From: a virus
Strand: one strand, 5' to 3'
Length of the DNA stretch: 64,000 nucleotides
IMG/VR virus record: IMGVR_UViG_3300032284_001133
Coordinates: 1 to 64,000 of that record
The translations under genes and the position numbers were made by a program. Under the pieces are notes generated by a model. That model had not been told where the DNA came from and made no database searches. It saw only the letters and a list, made by a program, of their open reading frames with translations. Numbering within the stretch: position 1 is the stretch's first letter; each line of letters starts with the position of its first letter. Positions 35,673-36,122 of this stretch are shown piece after piece.

Positions 35673-35675
35673 GCA

Positions 35676-35681
35676 TATAAT
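35676..35681 (+). promoter_or_regulatory. Perfect -10 box (TATAAT) before the noncoding region
   Basis: TATAAT lies four bases after the GIY-YIG gene stop. The -35 region at 16-18 bases is poor (TCACAC or similar), so this is a weak promoter call that would start an RNA near 35688. Confidence 0.3.
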
Positions 35682-35687
35682 CGGTAA

Positions 35688-36116
35688 TAAGCTCGCACCT
35701 GCTAATTTCGGGTGCCCAAAAATCTGGACTTAGAGTCGCAGGGATGGAAACCTCTTGCCGAAAAGAGTACTCAACTACTATCCTTTACAGGACGTCGATC
35801 GCAAATTGCCGCGGTTTAGTTGTTTGAAAAGAGTTAAAAAGGCCTAATGAAGGGAGAAAAACCCTACGTTTACATTTATGATAGCGTATATTTGTAAACC
35901 GCCGTTGAATGAAGACGGAGCTCGTGGTACCGGTCAACCGCCACTGTAATGCTCTAACGCTGTGTGACTTGTTGAACTCAGATAATGTCATTTTTTCGCC
36001 CGGCAGGGCGAAGTGTGACCATAGAATCTAGATAATATCTTAAACACTTCGTGTTTTCAATGTTAAAAAAATGCTTTGAGCTGAAAGCGAAAAAGCAAAT
36101 GAGCGCAAGCTCATTA
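35688..36116 (+). ncRNA. Candidate structured noncoding RNA, unknown class
   Basis: This is the main part of the only gene-free stretch over 300 bases (35673-36157). It is richer in G+C than the surroundings and full of helices: GCACC 35695-35699 with GGTGC 35711-35715; CTCTT/AAGAG at 35752-35767; GTTTACA 35868-35874 with TGTAAAC 35893-35899; TTCGCCC-GGCA-GGGCGAA at 35995-36012; AAACAC-TTC-GTGTTT at 36042-36056; AATGAGC-GCAA-GCTCATT at 36098-36115 with a GNRA tetraloop. No long ORF fits on plus. It ends just before a late promoter for the next gene. It does not match tRNA, tmRNA or group I core motifs by eye. Strand is assumed from flanking genes. Confidence 0.5.
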
Positions 36117-36122
36117 TCAAAC

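Follow-up and report, generated by a model that had tools for sequence, protein, structure and literature searches.

OMEGA RNAs are structured RNAs that adjoin the genes of IscB and TnpB nucleases and carry a variable short sequence. CsrB is a protein-titrating RNA with repeated equal binding sites. GOLLD and ROOL are large, ornate noncoding RNAs with homo-oligomer features, GOLLD being named as lake-derived (abstract of PMC12286853). Polynucleobacter-1 (Rfam RF01718) was listed for Burkholderiales and for fresh water and estuary, in a table entry that scores it 'y' as an RNA, 'y' as cis-regulatory and '?' as a riboswitch (Weinberg et al. 2010, PMC2864571). In the literature searched, which takes in few subscription journals, RF01718 is named in PMC2864571 only and the phrase 'Polynucleobacter-1 RNA' does not occur. 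On the comparisons given here, this motif, an orphan since 2010, becomes the 5' portion of a large RNA with pseudoknots that many freshwater T4-like phages carry.

The DNA analysed (the window, 64,000 nucleotides) comprised positions 1 to 64,000 of virus record IMGVR_UViG_3300032284_001133, an 84,060-base record of T4-like type, as judged by its genes for portal gp20, for gp46 and gp47 of SbcCD-like type and for a late sigma factor. A SegE-type GIY-YIG gene (35247-35672, + strand; PF19835, E 8.9e-34) ends with its stop codon at 35672 and the next gene begins with an ATG at 36158, leaving a gap of 485 bases in which only open reading frames of 40-68 aa, mutually overlapping and on both strands, were found. 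The G+C content of the gap is ~41-43%, against 30-36% immediately upstream. A first-pass annotation made from the letters of the window had described these 485 bases as free of any plausible gene, richer in G+C and placed between recombination genes and late genes, all of which was borne out, and its limits for a large structured noncoding RNA are close to the extent found by comparison (~35676-36118). Further upstream, a 64-aa protein (window 34901-35095) matched histone H1-like Hc1 (PF07432, E 6.6e-12).

The same annotation had placed the RNA in no recognised class. This did not hold: 136 of the 450 bases (35690-35825, + strand) matched model positions 1-141 of RF01718 at 111.7 bits (E 2.1e-23), well over the curated gathering threshold of 37. 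The Rfam covariance search that had been proposed there therefore returned a known family for 35690-35825, a clear member of Polynucleobacter-1, and left the remainder as it had been described, since no credible Rfam family was matched beyond 35825 up to E 10. Three other Rfam rows were eukaryotic chance matches far below their cut-offs. RF01718 was also found above gathering in 17 of the 20 relatives scanned. A tmRNA was matched neither by ARAGORN nor by Rfam.

Homologues were gathered as 80 viral loci via the neighbouring GIY-YIG protein, with more added via an RNA pattern. A profile was built from 29 intergenic regions and matched over its full length in 165 of the 202 sequences scanned, the remainder being truncated, divergent or unmatched; the window itself (L081) was left out of the set. 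Sequences were reduced to a non-redundant set of 111 (below 90% identity; mean identity 66%), and helices were counted in a 111-row local-pair alignment; an alternative alignment (A1) puts PKa and P13 out of register. Fifteen of 16 helices clearly exceeded all 200 column shuffles, covariation spanned 35681 to 36115, and two-sided changes were present in nearly all pairs of most helices (P1 5/5, P8 4/4, P7 12/12). Compensatory changes among homologues, which the first-pass annotation had named as a check of its noncoding RNA, were thus abundant and uphold it. Folding energy (z = -1.99; 4/100 shuffles folded equally well) is weak evidence by itself, and structure beyond chance is argued from covariation across relatives. 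In one pair of close relatives (L197 and L312; 471/486 identical), the few differences include a block of compensatory changes in PKb and, in both copies of the address described below, a switch between A and G.

By these comparisons the gap holds a conserved RNA of ~440 bases (35676-36118, + strand; ends approximate, from conservation). Three pseudoknots are among its roughly 16 helices, and RF01718 forms its 5' domain, about the first third. Conservation and covariation are not confined to the 141-position motif and run to 36115. Left undescribed by RF01718 are ~295 bases at the 3' side with extra helices, the twin address and the 5' strand of a pseudoknot; each of the three pseudoknots falls at least in part beyond the Rfam model.

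All parts are on the + strand. PKa pairs 35681-85 with 35757-61 (95.6% paired, 4/5 pairs two-sided, 111 sequences), the latter lying in the loop of hairpin 35752-67 and the 5' strand beyond the Rfam match. P7 is a 12-bp hairpin (35868-35899; 95.2% paired, 12/12 two-sided) whose loop (35881-87) pairs with 35957-63 to form PKb (98.2% paired, 7/7 two-sided). PKc pairs 35904-08 with 35934-38 (96.5% paired, 3/5 two-sided). P8 (35918-21/35951-54; 99.3% paired) and P9 (35924-28/35940-44; 98.2% paired) are nested stems within 35918-35954, a region with some of the RNA's most conserved letters. P11 (36044-54; 87.4% paired) and P12 (36073-96; 77.2% paired) are hairpins in which every pair is two-sided. 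Both tetraloop hairpins named in the first-pass annotation are present, as terminal hairpin P13 with a GCAA loop (36098-36115; 98.1% paired, 6/7 two-sided) and as P10 with a GGCA loop (35995-36012). P10 is clear in the sequence and is the one exception in the shuffle comparison: its alignment is ambiguous and its covariation marginal (74.5% paired vs a shuffle maximum of 73.8%, slid versions reaching up to 78.0%).

P10 stands between two direct repeats, R1 (ACTC + address + G, 35976-35987) and R2 (ATCT + address + A, 36026-36037), which covary by identity. Their address heptamers (35980-35986 and 36030-36036) both read AGATAAT in the window. Among the 111 sequences, the two addresses were identical at 35980/36030 in 110/111 and at 35981/36031, 35984/36034 and 35986/36036 in 111/111 each, and the signal faded just outside (35975/36025, 99/111; 35988/36038, 96/111). 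Differences in the flanks (ACTC/ATCT and G/A) were nearly fixed between R1 and R2 and are all transitions. At 35980/36030, all 26 A/G changes inferred in R1 fell on the same branches as those in R2 (27 changes; hypergeometric p 6e-33), 26 being an upper estimate of independent events because the tree ignores recombination. Part of R2 had served as bait in an RNA-pattern search, so the comparison was repeated on 71 sequences found via a pattern in the PKc region with the repeats unused. Equality was found in 55/55 pairs scored by regular expression and, on reading, in 6 more outside that rigid expression (AGTTGAA twice in L346 and L301); the remaining 10/71 were incomplete and unscored. Across all RNAs of the window's architecture (type A), 218/219 had equal addresses, with L185 as the exception and 2/221 unscorable. 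Address length was 7-11 bases across RNAs. Read from these alignments, the two copies change in step, and the equality of both sites implies one partner that would read both. As the copies changed together in dozens of inferred events and the RNA itself offers no partner, a specific outside partner is indicated, one that should be findable.

No third RNA position changing with the address was found, a result in favour of a partner external to the RNA. Pairing of the address within the RNA was also rejected, since none of the 111 RNAs held the complement of its own address, whereas control addresses gave 1.4. A small open reading frame from R1 to R2 was considered, since in the window a frame opened by an ATG within R1 extends into R2, but R1-R2 distances in 110 scorable RNAs gave 32/41/37 for remainders 0/1/2 modulo 3, and this spread indicates that no frame is kept. 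None of the GIY-YIG, gp46, gp47 and gp55-like proteins had a column that predicts the address (best 0.12-0.24 of ~0.69 nats).

Complementary sites were sought outside the RNA, where they bear on a reading in which the two addresses are guides pairing with one target RNA or DNA (of the phage, a rival phage or the host) while the RNA delivers something. The address is short (7-11 bases), variable and completely exchangeable, and the transitions between ACTC and ATCT and between G and A would fit a single target through G-U wobble. Within 6 kb, however, own-class rates of complementary sites were not consistently above those of other classes, and genome-wide in nine phage records there was no enrichment, the best matches being scattered. 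One orthologous pair of matches proved to be a conserved YPGR coding motif in 2/9 records only; an apparent cluster of targets in gp46 was likewise conserved coding sequence. Address identity is also stricter than wobble pairing requires, and we regard this reading as unlikely. If the partner were a nucleic acid after all, a new guide principle would be at hand.

Sense copies were counted in the same nine records, and no extra copies beyond R1 and R2 followed the address class; the address motif was unrepeated elsewhere, with two copies per genome. Extra copies of GTTAATGTAA in G028 (2) and G029 (3) were rejected as targets, as they lie in runs that encode VTLT-like peptides on the opposite strand. 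These counts weigh against a further view, in which R1 and R2 would lie in an RNA gene by chance and serve as DNA sites (operators, iterons or recombination sites) for a co-evolving DNA-binding protein. Operators evolve in step with their protein, and a late promoter lies ~85-140 bp downstream of the repeats. Only two copies exist per genome, none near other genes, and in each of the three architectures R1 and R2 always belong to one and the same RNA module, also where a downstream sense gene is absent, which leaves DNA sites improbable to us. Similarly little credence is given to a catalytic RNA, a ribozyme or self-splicing element for which the repeats would be two substrates or cut sites. 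In its size, its pseudoknots and the strong conservation of unpaired letters the RNA is on a par with ribozymes, and two identical sites would suit a single active site, but no ribozyme or intron family was matched in Rfam, group I and group II models included, and the RNA stands behind the stop codon of a complete gene, outside any gene itself. A self-splicing intron was the example that the first-pass annotation had given of a known family able to overturn it, and none appeared.

The reading that we prefer, tentatively and at somewhat less than an even chance, is a rigid scaffold acting in trans that would offer two equivalent docking sites to one co-evolving partner from the same phage. The 3' module presents one variable address twice, flanking a hairpin; the partner would read both sites with equal specificity, so that a change in the partner would force a matching change in both. 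That partner would most likely be an RNA-binding protein, a dimer or a pair of copies, which the RNA would hold or titrate in infection. What the sequences show is the structure, the equal addresses, the placement relative to promoters and the tie to the GIY-YIG gene; the docking is a proposal. It counts against the proposal that no partner, protein or nucleic acid, turned up among the neighbouring proteins compared and the sites searched. A protein used twice is preferred because no third position, no complementary site and no class-following extra copy was found; a nucleic acid, as second choice, is conceivable because the fixed differences between R1 and R2 are all transitions and hence wobble-compatible. 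A protein partner would provide a natural series of co-evolving RNA-protein pairs. CsrB resembles such an arrangement in repeating equal candidate sites in one RNA, and differs in that here there are two sites in a pseudoknotted fold, with a motif that varies among phages and is not the CsrA GGA. GOLLD and ROOL are likewise large, ornate and noncoding; their Rfam covariance models gave no match here up to E 10, and the opening of the abstract of PMC12286853 does not mention a twin address.

Promoters and downstream genes were surveyed at 97 non-redundant loci whose downstream sequence spans at least 600 bases. The first-pass annotation had bounded the RNA by a TATAAT box and a late promoter, and both are present in the window. 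The TATAAT (35676-35681) overlaps the PKa strand and was discounted as the RNA's promoter, being unconserved among relatives. The late promoter of T4 type (ATAAATA, 36123-36129, + strand), which belongs to the next gene, is credible because ATAAATA is strongly depleted in the window (8 vs 43.3 expected; 100/100 shuffles had at least 8). The motif is five times rarer than expected in the whole window, as if reserved for late promoters. A sense gene lay close downstream at 80/97 loci, with ATAAATA between RNA and gene in 72/80, compared with 86 of 4,200 random 130-base windows from the same loci. At 13/97 loci a sense gene was missing downstream and a convergent baseplate-hub homologue lay there instead; 4/97 had neither.

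The intervening promoter (72/80) and the missing sense gene (13/97) place the RNA outside the 5' UTR expected of a cis-regulatory leader or riboswitch, and for these reasons it probably works in trans. A riboswitch-like leader of the downstream gene, for which the tentative cis-reg 'y' in the table entry of PMC2864571 speaks, is accordingly judged very unlikely, and the 'cis-reg' label of Polynucleobacter-1 is unsupported here. The RNA would probably be made as the 3' end of an early or middle GIY-YIG transcript or from a promoter of its own, and not from the late promoter behind it.

The link to the GIY-YIG gene was measured on loci found by RNA pattern alone. The gene was upstream on the same strand in 156/160 type A loci (152 within 120 bases), 110/110 type B loci among the matches listed and 69/70 type C loci, tying a nuclease gene to the RNA as in OMEGA systems. 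In L008, L011, L002, L006 and L029 the RNA is kept despite other genes inserted between it and the GIY-YIG gene. A related gene was found in 474 named-phage records, and RF01718 was absent from 5/5 of those tested; because these phages lack the RNA, the RNA accompanies the gene but not vice versa. The likeness to OMEGA RNAs extends to a structured RNA directly 3' of a nuclease gene and a variable short sequence; the differences are a nuclease of GIY-YIG type, an address present twice and target searches that came up empty. It is thus conceivable, at a very low probability in our estimate, that the GIY-YIG nuclease and the adjoining RNA form a system in which the RNA supplies two equal copies of a re-addressable guide of 7-11 bases. 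These would direct two nuclease molecules, or two strands, to the same sequence, for example in rival phages or the host, and the guide would vary between close relatives while the nuclease would not. Common descent of the locus may be enough to account for the link.

Types B (at least 120 sequences) and C (84 sequences) occupy the same place behind the same GIY-YIG gene and have different 5' parts. RF01718 was absent from 7/7 type B and C records tested, and one type B and one type C RNA gave no credible Rfam match. Covariation was weaker yet present, in 10 stems for type B (55 sequences) and 3 stems for type C (37 sequences), counted without a shuffle control. Types A and B share a GGTACCGGTCAACCGCC block. 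Addresses were equal by a rigid pattern in 93/101 type B RNAs among the matches listed and in 62/78 type C RNAs; most of the misses listed hold equal addresses of other forms (ACAGGAA, GGTTAATGTAA, AGATCAAG, ACATGAAG), real discordances among them being L360 and L504, with a few type B misses unsettled. By these alignments types B and C, which lie outside Rfam, share the 3' module with its twin address. Five type C RNAs carry the wholly different address GGTTAATGTAA; base pairing would accommodate such a whole exchange more readily than a protein would, and this counts against a scaffold read by a protein. In L510 and L539, an insertion just before the type C anchor holds a palindromic hairpin with the unusual address GGTTAATG and its complement, and this hairpin is missing from L473, L523 and L534, which have the same address.

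Neither Rfam 15 nor the literature searched, a body without most subscription journals, yielded anything on the complete RNA, the pseudoknots, the twin address, type B or type C. Five RNAs representing types A, B and C had no blastn match in named phages, and the RNA was not found in the plasmids searched. The sole match in bacterial genome contigs (L276) is on a contig of 4,474 bases, probably a phage fragment, from a MAG that was binned as Bacteroidetes; Bacteroidetes was rejected as bacterial host, since it rests on this one contig and the binning is not trusted.

A second RNA, freshwater-2 (RF02980), lies at window 47207-47284 as the leader of a gene starting MGRP and was present in 13/19 records searched, its own record included (E up to 0.01); it was considered as partner of the address and rejected, as its sequence does not track the address. 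The gene that follows the gap (36158-36850) starts MRIAEIIVESDLNEGP. Its counterparts elsewhere start alike, with little similarity thereafter, and an [LIV]xE-type motif is present in the first 32 residues of 69/80 such next genes, a start that we take to resemble the capsid-targeting leader of T4, which the prohead protease cleaves.
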